Positions 38,721-48,826 of a stretch of 49,654 bases of DNA are shown here, piece by piece (within the stretch, counting starts at the first letter, position 1; the number at the start of each line of letters is the position of its first letter). The notes beneath the pieces were generated by a model. That model was not told the origin of the DNA. It saw only the letters and a list, made by a program, of their open reading frames with translations, and ran no database searches. Source of the stretch: Planctomycetota bacterium (GTDB taxonomy: Bacteria; Planctomycetota; Phycisphaerae; WQYP01); the NCBI GenBank assembly GCA_021804985.1, contig JAJZGD010000004.1:1-49654 (forward strand), written 5' to 3'. A program made the translations under genes and the position numbers.

Positions 38721-41700
38721 TCACCTGATTGTCGCATTCCCCCGCCGGCGCTGGCGCAACAGCAAGCCAATACCGGCAACTGCCAGGAGGCCAAGCGCTG
38801 CGGGCTCAGGCGTGGCCGTGGTGGTGGCAACACCGTTACTAAGGGCGGTGAAAAGCAGGCCATTGCTATCCGGATTGACGGTAAAATCAAACCCCGGCGC
38901 CAATCCGGTAAAGGTGTAATTCGAACCGCTGACATCCACCGACTGCGGTGGATCGACAAATTGAAATGTTTGCCCTTTCAGTGGCGCAAAACCATTGCCA
39001 AAATCAAATTCCACGGTTCCACCGGAAAAGCTTACCTTGCCGGTGGCATCCAACTGCGAAAATTGCCCCGAGTTAGTTCCATAAACCGACACTTTTGTCA
39101 CGCCGCCGGTCTGGTTGAAGTTGCCGGTGATTTTCAAAGTTCCCGGTGTACCGTTACCCACCGACACCGTTCCGTCGACATTAGTGACGCTGCCAGTTAT
39201 AGCACCCGACGCCGCGAGCTCACCGCTGCTGTAGATCGCGAGATTGCCCGCCGTGGCGGCCGTTCCCGTGCCCACCGTAACACCGCCGCTGTAATTATTG
39301 CCGGCGAGGTTGAGCGAACCGTTCTTCCACATGGTAAGGACTTTCGACACGCTCAGCTGGCCGCCCGCTGTAAGATCCACATTTCCGGCACCACCGGATT
39401 TGCTGCTGGTGCCGCCGACCACCAGATTGGTGGCCGACAAACTCGACGCACTCCCGTCAATATTCAAGTTTCCGTTGATGCCGGATGTTTCCGCCAAATA
39501 AACATCGCCAGTTCCGTTCGCCGTCGCCTGGGCCACTGCGCCATTTTGTATATTAAATGTGCCGTCGCTGGCTTTACCGATGATCAAGTCGCCTGCGTAC
39601 TGAACCTGGGTTTTTTGATCGGTTGCCGTCAGCGTACCGACCCCGCCACCTTTACCGATGGTGAGCGAATCACCATTGGCGATCAGGCTCGATGCGCTCT
39701 GAACGGTAACGGTGCCGGTACCTTGGCTGCCGATGGTGAGGCTGCCGCCAACGGTCCAACTGCTGCCGAAGTTAAGTGTTGCAGAGCCTTCGGTTCCCGG
39801 CTGGCTGCCCAGCGTCGCATCCCCTTTGTTGGCCAGTACCGAACTGCCCCCCATCGCCAATGTGCCCACACCATATTTGCCGATGGTTAAATCCTGGCTT
39901 AGTAATACCGATGATGCCCCGCTGATATCCAATTCGCCAGTTCCGCCAGTACTCGCTCCGCCAAAGCCCGTGCCAGAGGCCAGCGTCATCGATGTACCGC
40001 TAAAGCTTGCATTACTGGAAAGGGAAAGGGTTCCCGATCCGGATTTGCCAATTGTCATATCGCCGTTGAAGGTAAGAGTGGAGCCGCTGCCTACAAGATT
40101 CAGCGTGCCGCTGCCCGTATTCTGCTCACCAAGGGTAATGTCGTTGCCTTGCACGGTGAGGCTGCCGCTGTTTTGAATCGTGAGCGTGCCGGTACCGTAG
40201 CCACCAACGCTAAGCGTGCCAGCATCAGTAACCGAGGCACCATCAATAGTCAGGGTGCCCGAACCTGTGCTTTGGTCGCCCAGGGAAATATTGGTGCCGG
40301 TGCTAAGCGTTGCGGAATCCTGCACGTTAACGGTGCCGGTACCTTGGCTGCCTACCGTAAGCGATCCAGCCGACATCATGGTGTTGCTGCCCTGGACGGT
40401 GAGGGTGCCGGTGCCGGTGCTGTTTTCTCCAAGGGAAACACTGGCCCCTGAAAATATCGCGTCGGCAGCATTCTGCACTGTAAGCGTGCCGTCGCCTTTG
40501 CCGCCCACGGTAACCGAAGTGCCGCCGGCGATTATGCGCGATCCATTGCCGTCAAGCGTCAATGAGGAGGTGCCGCCGCTGTCCGCAATGGCCAGATTGC
40601 CCGCCAGCGAAACAAAGCCGCCATTTTCAACTTGCATTGTCCCGTTGCCGTTGTCGCCGACTTTAAGTTCTCCATTGATTTGCCATTCTGTACCCGCATC
40701 GGTAACAGTGGCCGATCCGGTCGAGCCGGCCTGGCTGCCGAGAATGCCATCTCCGGTGGTGATGACTTCGCCGTTGTTGCTTAAGGTTAAGGTGCCCTGA
40801 CCGGCATTTCCCACTGTAAGGTCGCCATCGACCGTCCATAGAGTGTTAATGTTGCTGACATTGGCAAAGCCTTTTGCTCCGGCCTGATTGCCCAAGGTGG
40901 CATCGCCTGATTCGACCGTTCCGTCCGCCTGCACCGCAAGCGTGCCGTTGCCCGCAAACTGATCGCCCAAGGTAAGTGTGCCGCCAATATTAAGATCACC
41001 GTGATTCTGGACGGTGACGGTGGCCACGCCGGAGACGCCAAAGTCGGCATTGCCGGAGACTGTCCAGGAAGAGCCGGCGCCGTCAATGACAACGTTGCCG
41101 CTTCCCGGCTGCCCTGCGGTGCCGTATGTTTTAGCCGGTCCCGCAGCGTATGCGGCAGCGCTGGTGGCACTCGCACCGTTTTCAATGGCCAAGAGGCCGT
41201 AGCCGCCATCGCCAACGAGAATGCCGGATGAGATGCTGGCCTTGGAGGCTGAACCGGTCAAGTAAAGCCGACCGGTTGAGCCGTATTTGCCGAGTGAAAG
41301 CCCAATAACCACGTAACCGCCGGTGCCCGTTGATGTGAGGTTTCCGTCATTAACGACCACCGTCCCCACGCCAGAATACAGGTACTGGTACCCGCCGTTC
41401 CCGACCTGTGGAAAATCTTGACCGACCACCATTGGAGTGTTGTTGAGGTTGATACTGCCGCCGGAATCCACGGTGACAAACCCTTGGCTGCCGAAACCGA
41501 TCTGCAAGGCACCATTCGAGTTGTTCCATGTGCCGCCGTCCACGTTCACAATGCCGTATCCGGTTCCATTCGCCGGGCCACCGAGGTGAGGGTGGTTCGT
41601 TGGAAAGATTTCCGCGGGATCGGTCAGAAAACCCTGTGCATCCACTTGGTTTGGCCCGTAGCCGGATGATCCGGGCGTTGGTGGAATCGGGGATTTGAAG

Positions 41701-42581
41701 GGTGGCCCTCCGCCGTTGCCCACATAGGTCCCGTAGTCATTGCCCAAAATCCAGCCCGGCGTTCCGAGGGATGCGGGGCGACTCATAGTGTTCAGCGTCC
41801 CGGTAACCTTAACCCAGCCGTAGCCGCCATCGCCAACGCTAAATAATCCGCCATCGTTACCCGTAACGTATGAAGCCGGCGCGAAGTAGCCGCTCGCTGC
41901 GGAAAAGCCCCCCAATGACGACGCGGGGCCCGCCTTGACAGTGATTTCCTGGCTTATCTGGATCGGGTAACCGCCGTTCCCCGCAGTGAAATCACCGACG
42001 ACAGCGTTGCCCAATAACGAAACCGCGGTAGGGCCTGAACTCACCAGGCTCTCAACGGATTGGATCGTGGTGCCGCCACCCGACCCCATAACCCCGCCCA
42101 CGTAGCCATACTCGGTGGTCATTTTGGCAACGTACACGCCGTTCGGGGAAAACGGTCCAACAGCTACAACTGCAGGGTAAGTTACCGGGGGCACGTAATA
42201 AAACGCACCGGACGGGAGTGGCGGCGGGGGCGGGTTGAACCCTGAAGCCCCATTCCGAAATTGCGTTGTGTTCCGAATCGGGAGATACCCACCGGCAGGG
42301 ACGGAGGTCTCTTGTGCGGGATTGAAGTCAAACGATCCACTCTGGCTATTGCCGAGGCTTGACGTACCATAGGAGGTGGAGACGCTCGTTCCGACCGGAT
42401 ACCCCGCCGCGGAGACGTACTGGAACGTGGGCGACGCCGGTGCCGTCGGCACTACCGGCGCCGTTGCGGGTGCAGCTGCTATCAAAGGCGCTGTGAGGCT
42501 GGCCAAGGCCGCCGCGGCGCCAATTCCGCAGGCCAGTGGCACGCCTACTCCAATGCTTGCTGGGCGCGGAGAGCCTCTCAT
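38721..42581 (-). CDS. PEP-CTERM sorted surface protein with T5SS/PEP-CTERM-type GxGTLTVQ repeats
   Basis: C-terminal TPEPAALGLLAVAGIGLLLRQRRRG (PEP motif, TM, basic tail); many repeats of the type VGGYGTGTLTIQNSGSLTV / LGDQSTGSGTLTIDG; signal-like N-terminus. Confidence 0.88.
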   Translation of the reverse strand: MRGSPRPASIGVGVPLACGIGAAAALASLTAPLIAAAPATAPVVPTAPASPTFQYVSAAGYPVGTSVSTSYGTSSLGNSQSGSFDFNPAQETSVPAGGYLPIRNTTQFRNGASGFNPPPPPLPSGAFYYVPPVTYPAVVAVGPFSPNGVYVAKMTTEYGYVGGVMGSGGGTTIQSVESLVSSGPTAVSLLGNAVVGDFTAGNGGYPIQISQEITVKAGPASSLGGFSAASGYFAPASYVTGNDGGLFSVGDGGYGWVKVTGTLNTMSRPASLGTPGWILGNDYGTYVGNGGGPPFKSPIPPTPGSSGYGPNQVDAQGFLTDPAEIFPTNHPHLGGPANGTGYGIVNVDGGTWNNSNGALQIGFGSQGFVTVDSGGSINLNNTPMVVGQDFPQVGNGGYQYLYSGVGTVVVNDGNLTSTGTGGYVVIGLSLGKYGSTGRLYLTGSASKASISSGILVGDGGYGLLAIENGASATSAAAYAAGPAKTYGTAGQPGSGNVVIDGAGSSWTVSGNADFGVSGVATVTVQNHGDLNIGGTLTLGDQFAGNGTLAVQADGTVESGDATLGNQAGAKGFANVSNINTLWTVDGDLTVGNAGQGTLTLSNNGEVITTGDGILGSQAGSTGSATVTDAGTEWQINGELKVGDNGNGTMQVENGGFVSLAGNLAIADSGGTSSLTLDGNGSRIIAGGTSVTVGGKGDGTLTVQNAADAIFSGASVSLGENSTGTGTLTVQGSNTMMSAGSLTVGSQGTGTVNVQDSATLSTGTNISLGDQSTGSGTLTIDGASVTDAGTLSVGGYGTGTLTIQNSGSLTVQGNDITLGEQNTGSGTLNLVGSGSTLTFNGDMTIGKSGSGTLSLSSNASFSGTSMTLASGTGFGGASTGGTGELDISGASSVLLSQDLTIGKYGVGTLAMGGSSVLANKGDATLGSQPGTEGSATLNFGSSWTVGGSLTIGSQGTGTVTVQSASSLIANGDSLTIGKGGGVGTLTATDQKTQVQYAGDLIIGKASDGTFNIQNGAVAQATANGTGDVYLAETSGINGNLNIDGSASSLSATNLVVGGTSSKSGGAGNVDLTAGGQLSVSKVLTMWKNGSLNLAGNNYSGGVTVGTGTAATAGNLAIYSSGELAASGAITGSVTNVDGTVSVGNGTPGTLKITGNFNQTGGVTKVSVYGTNSGQFSQLDATGKVSFSGGTVEFDFGNGFAPLKGQTFQFVDPPQSVDVSGSNYTFTGLAPGFDFTVNPDSNGLLFTALSNGVATTTATPEPAALGLLAVAGIGLLLRQRRRGNATIR

Positions 42582-42779: not shown

Positions 42780-43799
42780 ATGGTAAAACCGGCCGTGCAA
42801 AACACCCAGGACGAAATGCTGCTTGAAGCCCAACAGGTGGTGCGGTCACAAGCCGATGCGCTCTTAACCGTCATGAATCGAATGGATGATACGGTTTGCC
42901 GGGCCATGGAACTGATTTATCGCCAAACCGGGCCGGATAAACCGGGCGTCCTGGTGGTAACCGGTATTGGGAAATCAGGCCTCGCCGGCCAACGCGTTAG
43001 CGCGAGCTTTGCAAGCACCGGAACCCCCTCGCATTTTCTCCACCCCGTGGAGGCCATGCATGGCGATCTCGGCCGGATACGCACCGGTGATTTGATCCTT
43101 ATGCTTTCATACGGTGGCCAAACGGATGAATTGATCCGGCTGATGGATTTTGTTAAACGCAGCGCGGTATCCACCATTGTGATCACCTCCACCCGTCAAA
43201 GCCCGCTGGGCCGTCTGGCCGACATCGCCATCGAACTTGGCAATATTGAAGAAGCATGCCCACTGCGCCTCGCCCCCACGACCAGCATTACCTGCATGAG
43301 TGCCGTCGCCGATGCTCTGATGCTTGGCGTGATGAGCATGCGCAACTTTTCCGCGGCCGATTTTGCGGCCTTTCATCCTGCGGGATCGCTGGGGCGAAAG
43401 CTGCTTAAGGTTTCTGAGGTGATGAGTTTTCATGCGGGCAAAAATCTGGTGGTGGTGCATGGCCAAAACACCCTGCGAGAGGCACTCGCCACCGAGCACT
43501 CCGCCGGTCGGCGTGCCGGGGCGCTGGTGGTCGTCGATAACAATGCAGCGATCGCAGGAATTCTTACCGATGCCGACATCCGCCGCCGCATTTCTTCGCT
43601 TGAAAGCATCATCGACAGCCCGATTTCTTCCATCATGACGCGAAATCCTAAGTGTATCCGGCCACAGCAACTCGCCAGCGAGGCCCTGGAGTTGATGAAT
43701 CGCCATCGCATCGATGAGCTTCCGGTGGTGGATGATTCCGGGCGGCCCTTAGGAATGGTGGATGTGCAGGACATGGTAAGCCTGCGGATTATAGAGTAA
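42780..43799 (+). CDS. kdsD: arabinose-5-phosphate isomerase (SIS + tandem CBS domains)
   Basis: VLVVTGIGKSGLAGQRVSASFASTGTPSHFLHPVEAMHGDLGRI, AAFHPAGSLGRKLLKVSEVM; two CBS motifs (AGILTDADIRRRI; PLGMVDVQDMV). Confidence 0.93.
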   Translation: MVKPAVQNTQDEMLLEAQQVVRSQADALLTVMNRMDDTVCRAMELIYRQTGPDKPGVLVVTGIGKSGLAGQRVSASFASTGTPSHFLHPVEAMHGDLGRIRTGDLILMLSYGGQTDELIRLMDFVKRSAVSTIVITSTRQSPLGRLADIAIELGNIEEACPLRLAPTTSITCMSAVADALMLGVMSMRNFSAADFAAFHPAGSLGRKLLKVSEVMSFHAGKNLVVVHGQNTLREALATEHSAGRRAGALVVVDNNAAIAGILTDADIRRRISSLESIIDSPISSIMTRNPKCIRPQQLASEALELMNRHRIDELPVVDDSGRPLGMVDVQDMVSLRIIE

Positions 43800-43847
43800 T
43801 ACGGTGGCGGAAACGCGGCGGCGTAACAATGCAGGAGTGAAACACCC

Positions 43848-44390
43848 ATGAATCAGATTGAAAAAGTATCCCAAACTTATGAATTGATAAGTCCGGAAGT
43901 GCAGCTGTTGATCTTAGATGTCGATGGCGTGCTGACCGACGGCGGAATCATTCGGGATGACAGCGGCCAGCAGATTAAGCGGTTTCATGTCCGCGATGGA
44001 TCCGGCCTGGTGATGTGGCGGCGCCTCAACAAACAGGTCGCATTGATTACCGGCAAGGAAAGCCTGGTGGTGCAGCATCGGGCGGAGGAATTGGGCATCC
44101 AGTATGTTTATCAGAACGTCAGCAACAAGCTGGAAATTTATGATGATCTGCTCGAGCAACTTGGTTTTAATGCCCAGCAGGTGGCTTACATCGGGGATGA
44201 TCTGCCGGATTTGCCGATCATGCGGCGCTGCGGTGTACCCATTGCTGTGGCCGATGCCGCCGCGGAAGTTCGGGCCGAGGCCCGTTACATCACGCAGGTG
44301 GGCGGTGGCCATGGGGCCGTGCGCGACGCCATTGAATGGCTGTGCAAATCGATGAATCTCTGGGAACAGGTTTTGGCACGCTACCGCTGA
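43848..44390 (+). CDS. kdsC: 3-deoxy-D-manno-octulosonate 8-phosphate phosphatase (HAD superfamily)
   Basis: LLILDVDGVLTDGGI, RFHVRDGSGLVMWRRLNKQVALITGKES, VAYIGDDLPDLPIMRRCGVPIAVADA. Confidence 0.93.
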   Translation: MNQIEKVSQTYELISPEVQLLILDVDGVLTDGGIIRDDSGQQIKRFHVRDGSGLVMWRRLNKQVALITGKESLVVQHRAEELGIQYVYQNVSNKLEIYDDLLEQLGFNAQQVAYIGDDLPDLPIMRRCGVPIAVADAAAEVRAEARYITQVGGGHGAVRDAIEWLCKSMNLWEQVLARYR

Positions 44391-44429
44391 CCCCCCGCCG
44401 GTAAACTTTATTTTGGATGACAACACTGC

Positions 44430-47400
44430 ATGATCCGCCGCCGCCTGACGATCTATCTGGTAAGCCTCGCCATTTCTTTGGCCGTTTTTCTGTGGATCAA
44501 GGCCAAATATTTCCAGCCTGAATTCCCGGTGGCACGCCACCATCTAAAACCCGTGCCGATTAAATCCGGCACCGGCGGCTCCAACTTAGTGATGGTGGAT
44601 CGCAAGCCAAATGGCCGCCTGCTTTATGTGCTGCGATTCCGGCGGGCGATCCCCACCGGAAATGGCCGCTACCACCTGGTGCAGCCACGCATGGAATTTT
44701 TTAGCAGCGGGCAAAATGCCATGTTGGTCACCAGCGATAAAGGGGATGTGTCGGTGGATCAGCTTGGCGGCCCACTTTCAAATCACATCTATCCACGGAA
44801 AGGCCGGCTTTACGGGCATGTGGTGGTTACCGTCGGGCCGGAGAAGAGTTTTGTTTCAGGCCAAAAGCAACGCCAGCCGGGGCAGTTTCAGATGCTTTTG
44901 TCGCGCCCCATTCATTTTAACTATCAGGAAGGGCTGATCACCAGCCGGGGTGCGGTGCGGGTGCACGGCGATCGCGTGGAATTTTTGGGCCGCCGCCTCA
45001 CTTGCGAATTAAATGTCGCGACCAAAAAGCTTGACTATCTGCAGATCGAGCATGGGGACTATCTAATCATCAAGCATGTGGGTGCTGCAGCGGCTGGTGG
45101 CTCGGGCGCGTCGGGCGCTGCCCCACCAAACTCTGCCCATCCCACCACTGCCCCCGCCAGACCATCGCAGAGCGTCGCCACGCGTCCCGCCACCACGCAC
45201 CCATCGCCGGCAACCCAACCCATTGGGGCTACTTCTCGCCCCGCGGCCGCATCGCAGAACCTGTATCGTCTGGTCTTTACCCAGAAGGTACATGTGAAGA
45301 TTGGCCGGCAGACGCTTTGGGCCCATCGCTTGCGGCTCTATTTTTCGTCGGCTCGCGGGGCGTCGGCGGGTTCCGGTGCACCTGCCGCGGCGGCCAAAAA
45401 GCCACCAGCTGGCAAAATCGCCGGGCCAGCTGGCACCACCGCCCCGCCGCCGCACGCCAAGACTGCATCCAATGCCGGGCGAACCCTTATCGTCCACTGG
45501 AAGGGGCCGCTGACGCTTCGGCCGGTGCAACGGCAAACGATCCACCTGATAAATAAAAAGGATGTGGTGCTGCAGGCGTTTGGCCGCAGCGGATCGCCAG
45601 TGATTCTGCATGATGGCCCCAGCCGCAGTGGCGTGGCCAGTGTGGTGATGTACCATCTCGGCGACCGCACCTTGCGAATGACGGCCAGCGGGCTTGCGCC
45701 CATTAAATTTGTTGACGCCACCGTCGGCACCATCACCTGCCGCAGCTTGCTTTATCAGGCCAACGCCGGGCGGTTGTTTCTCGGCGGCCCGGGGCAATGG
45801 ATATATCATCGCGGCACCAAACATCAGCAGACACGGCGGGGATCTTGGCGTGGTTCCTGGCAGAAGCAGATGCGGCTGGTGCTCGCCCGGTTACCGGACG
45901 GCAAATCAGCTATTAAGAGCCTGCGGATATTAACCGATGCCACACTTTATAATCACACGTTTCATCTGAAGGCCGATGCCATGCATGCGACGTTTGCGGC
46001 CGCCATAAAAGGAAACCCCTCGCTGAAACAATTTGTATCCCGCGGCCACGTAGAACTGCGATCAACAAATATCGCCGCCGCCACCGCCAACCAACAATCC
46101 GATACGCTGGATTGTGACCTGCTGCGGCTGACGACAAGCGTTAATGCCGCCACGCATCAGCGCCAACCCGCATTGCTGTATGCCGCCGGCAAGATCAGCC
46201 TGCATTTTTCACAGGCCACTGCGGGCACCGCAGCCACCGGCCGCAAGGCACAGCGCTACCATTTACGCAGCGGCTACCTGCAAGCCCACCTTGAGAATCT
46301 CGCCGGCGCCGGCACTTTGGGCCGTCCCCATCCGTCATCTGGTCCCTTTGGCAGCACGGGCGGCAGTTTTTCCATCGGGCGCTTTCACGCGTGGAAGCAC
46401 GTGCGGCTGGTTATCTCGGGTGGCACCTATCCCATCCGCGCATCCTGCGACGATTTGCGCGGCAATCGCAACACCAAGTTGCTGGCGCTTATCAGCCACG
46501 CCACCTCCAGATCAATGGCCAAAATCCGCGAGCACCACAATTGGATTGCAGGACGAAATATTGAACTCAATGGAAAAAGCGATGACCTTAAAATCCCCGG
46601 CCCCGGCAGCCTGTATCTTTCGAGCCGCTCTCACGGCCATCAACCATCGGACATGCTGCTCACCTGGCAGGGGCGCATGTATTTTCGTAAGAAGATCGGC
46701 GAAGCAACTTTTTTCTCTCATGCGCTGGCCAAACTCGTCGGGCAACCGTTGCGTCAGAGCCGCCTTTCGGCACCCGTACTGCGTGTAAAGGTAAGCAATC
46801 GGCATACCGGCAAGATGCGACTATCCGAAATTTACGCGTTTTGTCTGAAACCTCATCAGCATGTTGAGGCTCAGGATGTCAGCTACGATTCGGCGCGACT
46901 GGTGGACACGCGTGTTTATTTGCACTGCCGGCGCCTGCGTTACGATGCGATAAAGCAGCATCTGCTGGTGGCTGGCAAAGGAAAACTTTTACTCGAGAAT
47001 TATCGATCCGCCCCCGCTCGCAAACATCAGTCGCAGCCGAATAACCGCGGGCAGTCGGCCTTTCAATGGAGCCGATCTCTGGATTACCGCGCCGGCACAG
47101 GGCATCTGTCATTAAGCGGCGCGGTGCGGCTGGTGTATCGCCCCATGAAGGCCTTTGTGTTGCCGCGGAGCATTGCGGGATCCAATCGCGGCCCCAATGC
47201 CGGGTTGATCCTTTTGAAAGCGGCGAAGCTTATTGCCCATTTGCTGCGGCCTCATCGGCAGGTCGCCAGCGGCGTGGCATTGGGCATGGGTGGCCCGGCA
47301 CGGCTTAAATCGGTGCATGCCTACAAGGCGGCCCTGGAGCTTGCGGGAACGCGGCTTACGGCGGACGTGCTGGCATTTGAGGCGCTGCCGCAGATTGCGA

Positions 47401-47549
47401 CGGCGTACAGCGCGCAGGGACGCGACGCCCACATCACCACCTATAATGGAAAACTTAACGCCGCAGCGAGGGAAATCATCTGGCATCTCGGTAAATCGCA
47501 AAGCGCTATCACGCTGGTGCAGCCGCGGGCCAGTGGCACCGTGCCATAA
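44430..47549 (+). CDS. large LptC/OstA-like LPS-transport-associated protein
   Basis: N-terminal TM anchor (RRLTIYLVSLAISLAVFLWIKAKYF) followed by LptC/OstA-like beta-strand pattern; directly downstream of kdsD-kdsC as lptC is in E. coli; Pro/Ala/Thr-rich linkers inside. Confidence 0.62.
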   Translation: MIRRRLTIYLVSLAISLAVFLWIKAKYFQPEFPVARHHLKPVPIKSGTGGSNLVMVDRKPNGRLLYVLRFRRAIPTGNGRYHLVQPRMEFFSSGQNAMLVTSDKGDVSVDQLGGPLSNHIYPRKGRLYGHVVVTVGPEKSFVSGQKQRQPGQFQMLLSRPIHFNYQEGLITSRGAVRVHGDRVEFLGRRLTCELNVATKKLDYLQIEHGDYLIIKHVGAAAAGGSGASGAAPPNSAHPTTAPARPSQSVATRPATTHPSPATQPIGATSRPAAASQNLYRLVFTQKVHVKIGRQTLWAHRLRLYFSSARGASAGSGAPAAAAKKPPAGKIAGPAGTTAPPPHAKTASNAGRTLIVHWKGPLTLRPVQRQTIHLINKKDVVLQAFGRSGSPVILHDGPSRSGVASVVMYHLGDRTLRMTASGLAPIKFVDATVGTITCRSLLYQANAGRLFLGGPGQWIYHRGTKHQQTRRGSWRGSWQKQMRLVLARLPDGKSAIKSLRILTDATLYNHTFHLKADAMHATFAAAIKGNPSLKQFVSRGHVELRSTNIAAATANQQSDTLDCDLLRLTTSVNAATHQRQPALLYAAGKISLHFSQATAGTAATGRKAQRYHLRSGYLQAHLENLAGAGTLGRPHPSSGPFGSTGGSFSIGRFHAWKHVRLVISGGTYPIRASCDDLRGNRNTKLLALISHATSRSMAKIREHHNWIAGRNIELNGKSDDLKIPGPGSLYLSSRSHGHQPSDMLLTWQGRMYFRKKIGEATFFSHALAKLVGQPLRQSRLSAPVLRVKVSNRHTGKMRLSEIYAFCLKPHQHVEAQDVSYDSARLVDTRVYLHCRRLRYDAIKQHLLVAGKGKLLLENYRSAPARKHQSQPNNRGQSAFQWSRSLDYRAGTGHLSLSGAVRLVYRPMKAFVLPRSIAGSNRGPNAGLILLKAAKLIAHLLRPHRQVASGVALGMGGPARLKSVHAYKAALELAGTRLTADVLAFEALPQIATAYSAQGRDAHITTYNGKLNAAAREIIWHLGKSQSAITLVQPRASGTVP

Positions 47550-47632: not shown

Positions 47633-48193
47633 TTAAATAACAAAAATGGCCGCGGCGATCACCGTGGTCCACAGGGCGTTTTTATCCCCTTCCGCCGTCT
47701 GCACGATGTTTCGCGCCCGCACTGAATAGCCGCTCATGCGATATATTTCCTTCCGCTCATCGTAATTTTTGGCAGGATCAAATTCAATGCCCAGCGTCGT
47801 GGCCAGCATCGTTACGGCCGCGTCATCCACTTCATCGCGCAAACGCTCTTCCGTCAGGCCGTAACCTTCATAATGACTTATGTAGCCATAATGATCTTTA
47901 ATGGCCTTTGCCACCGCCACCCCGGCCCCGATGAGCCGGTTGGGTTCATTGGAAGCAACCTCACTGATAACGCCGTACGCCACCTGCCCCGCGCTTAAAC
48001 AACTGATTCCCTCGCGTGCGGTGATCATTTTGCAGCGTGCGGGCACAATGCCGGAAACCTTGACCAGGTTGAATTTTTGTATGCCGGCGTTGCGATAGGC
48101 AAGCTCCAGCGATTGGGCCCGAAAGCGATGGCGACCCACCCCGCGGGTCAAGAATAATTGGCTGGGAATCTGCGGTGAATTGTCACTGCCCAT
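47633..48193 (-). CDS. pyruvoyl-dependent arginine decarboxylase family protein (altered cleavage site)
   Basis: PSQLFLTRGVGRHRFRAQSLELAYRNAGIQKFNLVKVSGIVPARC...EPNRLIGAGVAVA...ATMLATTLGIEFDP...QTAEGDKNALWTTVIAAAIFVI. Confidence 0.88.
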   Translation of the reverse strand: MGSDNSPQIPSQLFLTRGVGRHRFRAQSLELAYRNAGIQKFNLVKVSGIVPARCKMITAREGISCLSAGQVAYGVISEVASNEPNRLIGAGVAVAKAIKDHYGYISHYEGYGLTEERLRDEVDDAAVTMLATTLGIEFDPAKNYDERKEIYRMSGYSVRARNIVQTAEGDKNALWTTVIAAAIFVI

Positions 48194-48395: not shown

Positions 48396-48423
48396 TTGCA
48401 GAGATTCAAAAAAGCCTTATTTT
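48396..48423 (+). promoter_or_regulatory. possible sigma70-like promoter for the HU gene
   Basis: TTGCAG (48396-48401), 16-nt spacer, TATTTT (48418-48423), upstream of the HU ATG at 48521; pattern only. Confidence 0.3.
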
Positions 48424-48520
48424 ATTACCCTGTTCGGTACTTGAGTTCGGATCCGTCCCCGGTGGTGGAGCGCCGGACGAACTCGACGAACCCCGTCTGC
48501 CATGTATAAGGAGAAGCTTC

Positions 48521-48826
48521 ATGGCCAAATCTCTCACCAAATCCCAGATCACTGCGAAGCTCGCGGAAGCCGTGAGCAAGCAGCACGGTGCGGAAGTGAG
48601 CAAAAAGCTCGCGGACACCTTCCTCAATTGTCTTGCCGAACTCGCCTACAAGGAAGCGAAAAACAAGTTCACGCTTCCCGGCCTCGGTAAGCTCATTATC
48701 AATCACCGCAAGAAGCGGATGGGCCGTAACCCAGCCACCGGCGTAGCCATGGAAATTCCCGCCAAGCGTGTGGTGAAGTTCCGTGTGGCCAAGGCCGCTA
48801 AGGACAGCATCCTCGGCGCCAAGTAA
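48521..48826 (+). CDS. HU-family DNA-binding protein
   Basis: MAKSLTKSQITAKLAEAVSKQHGAEVSKKLADTFLNCLAELAYKEAKNKFTLPGLGKLIINHRKKRMGRNPATGVAMEIPAKRVVKFRVAKAAKD; AAGGAG RBS upstream. Confidence 0.94.
   Translation: MAKSLTKSQITAKLAEAVSKQHGAEVSKKLADTFLNCLAELAYKEAKNKFTLPGLGKLIINHRKKRMGRNPATGVAMEIPAKRVVKFRVAKAAKDSILGAK

Follow-up and report, generated by a model that had tools for sequence, protein, structure and literature searches.

A conserved glycine at the pyruvoyl-precursor site of PvlArgDC homologues in a SpeA-carrying family of Phycisphaerae

Background

Pyruvoyl-dependent arginine decarboxylases (PvlArgDC, PF01862), among them the Methanocaldococcus jannaschii enzyme and AaxB of Chlamydia, acquire their cofactor from their own chain. 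The hydroxyl group of the second serine in a Ser-Ser pair attacks the preceding carbonyl, elimination leads to dehydroalanine and hydrolysis of the latter to the pyruvoyl group (PMC3975893). In the M. jannaschii enzyme Asn47 bonds the carbonyl of Ser52 and thus polarises the scissile carbonyl (PMC3975893), and Glu109 is reported to facilitate cleavage in this protein family (PMC2720952). Activation failed in an Escherichia coli aspartate decarboxylase mutant in which the serine position held an alanine and the residue before it was a serine (PMC3975893). The solved M. jannaschii chain 1n2m is an S53A mutant and reads ISAIMPP at the motif.

Here we describe a PvlArgDC homologue in which the precursor serine is replaced by glycine. 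It is encoded in a stretch of 49,654 nt, analysed as a whole and called the window in the following, from the genome of a Phycisphaerae-type planctomycete to which, among named relatives, metagenome bins of planctomycetes and Phycisphaerae come closest.

Results and Discussion

A PvlArgDC homologue with Gly for the precursor serine

The gene and the positions of interest within it are:

47633..48193, minus strand: PvlArgDC-family gene, Ser-Gly (SG) variant, 186 aa (P0001), from PF01862, AlphaFold and Foldseek
48050..48055, minus strand: Ser47-Gly48 (TCC GGC), Gly48 at the M. jannaschii Ser53 pyruvoyl-precursor site, from the alignment to 1n2m
47873..47875, minus strand: His107 at the M. jannaschii Glu109 position, from the alignment to 1n2m
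48068..48070, minus strand: Asn42, the kept equivalent of M. jannaschii Asn47, from alignment and family comparison

The reading frame starts with ATG and comprises 186 codons without an internal stop. Its product matches PF01862 over the entire profile (positions 1-161 of 161, E 3.3e-41, 141.3 bits against a cut-off of 22.7). The AlphaFold model (pLDDT 92.4, pTM 0.87) is predicted to adopt the four-layer alpha-beta-beta-alpha fold of the M. jannaschii enzyme, and its best PDB match in Foldseek is 1n2m, the unprocessed S53A proenzyme (E 2.1e-17; query TM 0.74, target TM 0.89). The full-length profile match and this fold match bear out the initial annotation of the gene as a PvlArgDC homologue. 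The motif of the protein is NLVKVSGIVPARC, with the codons GTT TCC GGC specifying Val-Ser-Gly where the family needs Ser-Ser. When aligned to the M. jannaschii chain by sequence and by profile, the protein has Gly48 at residue 53, Ser47 at 52, Asn42 at 47 and His107 at Glu109; hence the glycine does occupy the pyruvoyl-precursor position, as had been claimed at the outset. Among the features of a functional PvlArgDC, the equivalent of Asn47 is present (Asn42), while the precursor serine (Gly48) and Glu109 (His107) are both missing. The NCBIfam equivalog cut-offs for PvlArgDC are not reached either (NF009064, 140.5 against 207; TIGR00286, 94.2 against 106.95); a relative with the usual Ser-Ser pair (SS type; L226) passes TIGR00286 (129.7 against 106.95) and misses NF009064 (200.9 against 207). 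Judged from these sequence features, the protein is a member of PvlArgDC by descent and fold, but not a functional PvlArgDC by the defining catalytic ones. Because glycine has no hydroxyl group, normal maturation is impossible. The protein very probably remains an uncleaved, proenzyme-like chain, and we are similarly confident that it has no decarboxylase activity.

A sequencing or assembly error, or chance, as the source of the glycine can be rejected, as it occurs in 23 separate genomes and in varied spellings, several different Ser and Gly codons being used at this site among the genomes checked. VSG is part of RVSGY, a motif of glycyl-radical proteins. Membership in that group was also rejected, as the residue sits in a PvlArgDC fold and aligns with serine in all relatives.

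Distribution and phylogeny of the SG variant

A PvlArgDC homologue was found in 23 out of 28 genomes and 9 out of 11 genera of the window's family, with one copy per carrier. Every copy covering the site reads V-S-G (23 copies, 9 genera), that is, all 22 full-length ones and a partial one. In aligned relatives from outside the family the precursor position is serine in 159 out of 159 sequences, which were taken from other families of the class and phylum and from the best 60 non-family matches of a collection scan, some of them representing the same genome in two collections. That scan covered approximately 85,000 species genomes with Planctomycetes-type peptide patterns, and SG variants may also occur in distant phyla. 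A distant PvlArgDC-like subfamily (L084/L218 in G314 and L219 in G585; about 100 bits) has the motif YSSILPK, still with Ser-Ser.

In a tree calculated without the motif columns and the column of Glu109, all SG proteins group in a single clade on a long stem with a support of 100/100; the initial annotation had proposed to check whether the VSG variant has a clade of its own, and it does. Another long stem sets off the window's genus. The sister position of the nearest SS family (f105) to the SG clade is weakly supported (83/50). Two genomes of the window's family, both from one genus (g8) and at least 91% complete, do not have the gene, therefore it is not essential to this family.

Beyond the glycine, the SG clade differs from the SS proteins at further positions. 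Glu109, invariant in SS proteins (159 of 159), is kept in 9 of the 22 SG sequences and replaced by Arg in 9 and by His in 4. It is lost in the window's genus (His107), and the other SG genera have Arg or Glu. A histidine two residues further on is present in the copies with Glu and gone from those without it. Two leucines invariant among SS proteins have changed as well, position 26 to Ala or Pro and position 33 to Phe, Tyr or Met, with one Leu. Asn42 is found in all 22 SG and all 159 SS sequences, and Glu30, Arg34, Ser47, Glu83, Arg86, Tyr104, Asp120 and Asp124 likewise vary hardly or not at all in either group; Trp175 and most other family-invariant residues are retained in SG, too. The comparison of SG with SS proteins revealed no new invariant nucleophile or set of metal ligands. 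From this we read that the glycine arose first, in the ancestor of the family, and that Glu109 was given up afterwards by some of its lineages.

PvlArgDC and SpeA exclude each other outside the window's family

The initial annotation had proposed to look for a canonical SS copy or another arginine decarboxylase in the same genomes. The former does not exist in the window's genome, where the search for a second PvlArgDC returned a single PF01862 match; the latter does. A full-length SpeA (897 bits) has the PLP-lysine motif YPIKVN and a CDSDG motif. A 40-genome panel contained 17 members of the window's family, 16 of them with full-length SpeA and the remaining one with a fragment; none of its 20 SS-type genomes had a full-length SpeA. 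Altogether, SpeA accompanies 21 out of 23 SG genes, and the two carriers without a match are 87% and 69% complete. In one genome SpeA and the SG gene are separated by about 3.4 kb; a physical link between both was rejected, this proximity being limited to that genome.

Elsewhere the two enzymes hardly ever meet. Among the class genomes from outside the window's family (the survey of 298 genomes includes the latter), 126 have only PvlArgDC, 84 only SpeA, 59 neither and 1 both (Fisher p 2e-29). In a phylum sample of 392 genomes the corresponding counts, excluding the window's genome, are 96, 193, 101 and 1 (p 4e-34). These tests treat related genomes as independent and the p-values thus overstate the evidence; the pattern recurs in many families. 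Hence, SpeA occurs in 1 of 127 PvlArgDC carriers in the class and in 1 of 97 in the phylum sample, and in both exceptions the SS-type PvlArgDC is broken, with only the N-terminal half left in G607 (L217, L224) and only the C-terminal half in G335 (L232). These two are natural examples of PvlArgDC decay after displacement. Outside the window's family, PvlArgDC is lost or broken where SpeA is present; it is kept, in the SG form, in the window's family only.

Agmatine pathway and genomic context

The window's genome also encodes adjacent homologues of N-carbamoylputrescine amidase (AguB) and agmatine deiminase (AguA), both below their NCBIfam equivalog cut-offs, and a synthase that exceeds the cut-off of the '1,9-bis(guanidino)-5-aza-nonane synthase' model (577 against 500). 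Since SpeA, the AguA/AguB homologues and this agmatine-using synthase occur together, agmatine is probably still used, with SpeA as its supplier. A search with PF02675 gave no match in the window's family. There is thus no SpeD, and an arginine decarboxylase of the AdoMetDC type (SpeDA) was rejected as well.

In SS genomes the PvlArgDC gene often adjoins a deoxyhypusine-synthase-like synthase gene and an agmatinase gene, in the order PvlArgDC-synthase-agmatinase in G434 and PvlArgDC-agmatinase-synthase in G467. Apparent operons of an SS-type PvlArgDC with these two were seen in L226 (4413-7129), where the synthase matches the NCBIfam model of a homospermidine biosynthesis protein below its cut-off, and in L231 (4238-6740), where it matches a different NCBIfam model, that of the bis-guanidino-aza-nonane synthase, above the cut-off. 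In family f105, a universal-stress-protein-like gene lies directly upstream of the SS-type PvlArgDC (L228, 4073-4489; L229, 5041-5493); this match was tested in L228. No polyamine or other enzyme operon surrounds the SG gene at its locus. Its divergent neighbour is:

48521..48826, plus strand: HU-like DNA-binding protein gene (PF00216)

This is the commonest neighbour of SG genes, found in 3 of 9 genera, and the adjacency is seen in SG loci only. A promoter-like block on the HU side (window 48420-48520), TTGCA followed by TTATTTTAT, is conserved across the three genera, and the intergenic alignment has no conserved upstream element on the SG side. We therefore do not claim shared regulation of both genes.

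Two further observations were made in the window. The region 42780-47549 holds genes for a SIS-CBS (sugar-phosphate isomerase-like) protein and a HAD phosphatase, followed by that for a 1039-aa protein without a Pfam match; this gene group is conserved in the genus and possibly related to KDO/LPS. On the minus strand, 38721-42581 encodes a repeat-rich protein of 1286 aa with a C-terminal hydrophobic stretch and then RQRRRG, similar to a PEP-CTERM-type sorting signal.

Selection and possible roles of the SG protein

The SG protein is under strong purifying selection. By the Nei-Gojobori method, pairs from the window's genus for which dS is finite give a dN/dS of 0.009 to 0.035, and further close pairs of SG genes one of 0.016 to 0.079; these figures are rough, as many dS values approach saturation. 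Among members of the window's genus, identity amounts to 90-92% for the SG protein and 86-87% for the neighbouring HU protein. Lost catalytic residues in a protein held by purifying selection, which are one general mark of a pseudoenzyme besides a demonstrated lack of activity, are found here. The fate of PvlArgDC next to SpeA in G607 and G335 might suggest a decaying leftover of a displaced enzyme here, too. However, the full-length reading frame in 22 genomes and the motif invariant over 9 genera argue against decay, and the low dN/dS of close pairs (0.01-0.08) shows that the gene is not decaying. This explanation is extremely unlikely, and the early impression that the sequence did not look like random decay was correct.

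Cleavage at a shifted serine, which the initial annotation had considered, would require that Ser47 attacks the carbonyl of Val46, which would move the cut one residue upstream and turn Ser47 into the pyruvoyl group. Ser47 and the valine before it are indeed invariant in all SG copies, and the fold and Asn42 are retained. Yet the first motif residue is just as constant (Ser or Thr) among ordinary SS proteins, and little can be concluded from its conservation; moreover, going by the contact of Asn47 with Ser52 in M. jannaschii, Asn42 should act on the Ser47-Gly48 bond (PMC3975893). The comparable aspartate decarboxylase mutant was not activated (PMC3975893), the window's genus no longer has Glu109, and with SpeA present the activity would be redundant. 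We regard such a shift as conceivable but very improbable. If the old active site had taken on new chemistry that needs no pyruvoyl group, this could explain why the nine polar residues from Glu30 to Asp124 were kept while Leu 26 and Leu 33 changed, but the catalytic Ser53 is gone, in the window's genus together with Glu109, neither a new nucleophile nor new metal ligands are apparent, and the gene is not surrounded by an enzyme operon, which makes this reading unlikely. As a partner subunit of a canonical PvlArgDC, another early suggestion, the protein is excluded by the lack of a second copy in the genome. It might instead be a prozyme-like activator or inhibitor subunit of SpeA, AguA or the deoxyhypusine-synthase-like enzyme. 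SpeA is present in 21 of 23 carriers and in one of them close by, and activation by a dead paralogue is known for a pyruvoyl enzyme (PMC5201418). However, SpeA has an unrelated PLP fold and no homologous active partner exists, genus g8 has SpeA, AguA and the synthase without the SG protein, and the proximity to SpeA is confined to one genome. We consider this role improbable as well.

Superimposing the computed results on substitution, clade, selection, fold and replacement by SpeA, we think it on balance probable that a former PvlArgDC turned into a cofactor-less pseudoenzyme and was kept, possibly as a ligand-binding regulator or sensor, after its displacement by SpeA. Among the explanations offered initially, a neofunctionalised non-decarboxylase fits best. 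In this scenario the PLP-dependent SpeA would have taken over the conversion of arginine to agmatine in the ancestor of the Phycisphaerae family, and the old PvlArgDC gene would have left its polyamine operon. Once glycine had replaced the precursor serine, neither cleavage of the chain nor a pyruvoyl group would be expected any more, and the catalytic Glu109-x-His pair may have disappeared later in some lineages, the window's genus among them. The uncleaved oligomer, presumably a trimer, might still bind a guanidino or amino-acid-like ligand such as arginine, agmatine or a polyamine. Ligand-binding regulation is preferred because the conserved residues are largely kept and there is no partner enzyme of the same family; a role of this kind is plausible, if somewhat less than probable. 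Against it, no partner, ligand or regulated target was found, the HU gene is a neighbour in 3 of 9 genera only, and Glu109, retained in 9 of 22 copies, indicates that the window's protein has changed more than some other members of the clade. Only tentatively do we suggest that the SG proteins constitute a new class of dedicated arginine, agmatine or polyamine sensors without a cofactor, born of the non-homologous replacement by SpeA, in which the ligand pocket of a self-processing enzyme would have been frozen in the proenzyme state and then reused.

'Arginine decarboxylase', the name assigned by automatic annotation, is probably incorrect for the whole SG family. With SS relatives, the replacement enzyme and two decayed controls available for comparison, it becomes testable what preserves an enzyme once another one has taken over its reaction.

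Comparison with known systems

In the literature searched we found no description of an SG-type PvlArgDC. The protein shares with the characterised PvlArgDC enzymes the fold, homology over the full length, the Asn47 equivalent and the first motif serine; unlike them it has Gly for Ser53 and, in the window's genus, His for Glu109, and its genome contains SpeA. The AdoMetDC prozyme of trypanosomatids (PMC5201418) is likewise a dead, pyruvoyl-less decarboxylase homologue in polyamine metabolism kept by selection, but belongs to a different family and fold and acts with an active paralogue, whereas SG carriers have one PF01862 match each and no SpeD. The neofunctionalised SpeD homologues SpeDA and SpeDC (PMC10407285) are another case of a pyruvoyl decarboxylase family changing its role within polyamine metabolism, Planctomycetota included; these kept the pyruvoyl serine and gained a new substrate, whereas the SG protein lost the serine. 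The best structural match is the M. jannaschii S53A proenzyme, an unprocessed laboratory mutant, of which the SG protein is a natural and evolutionarily stable counterpart, with Gly instead of Ala, family-wide, and with further changes in the active site thereafter.
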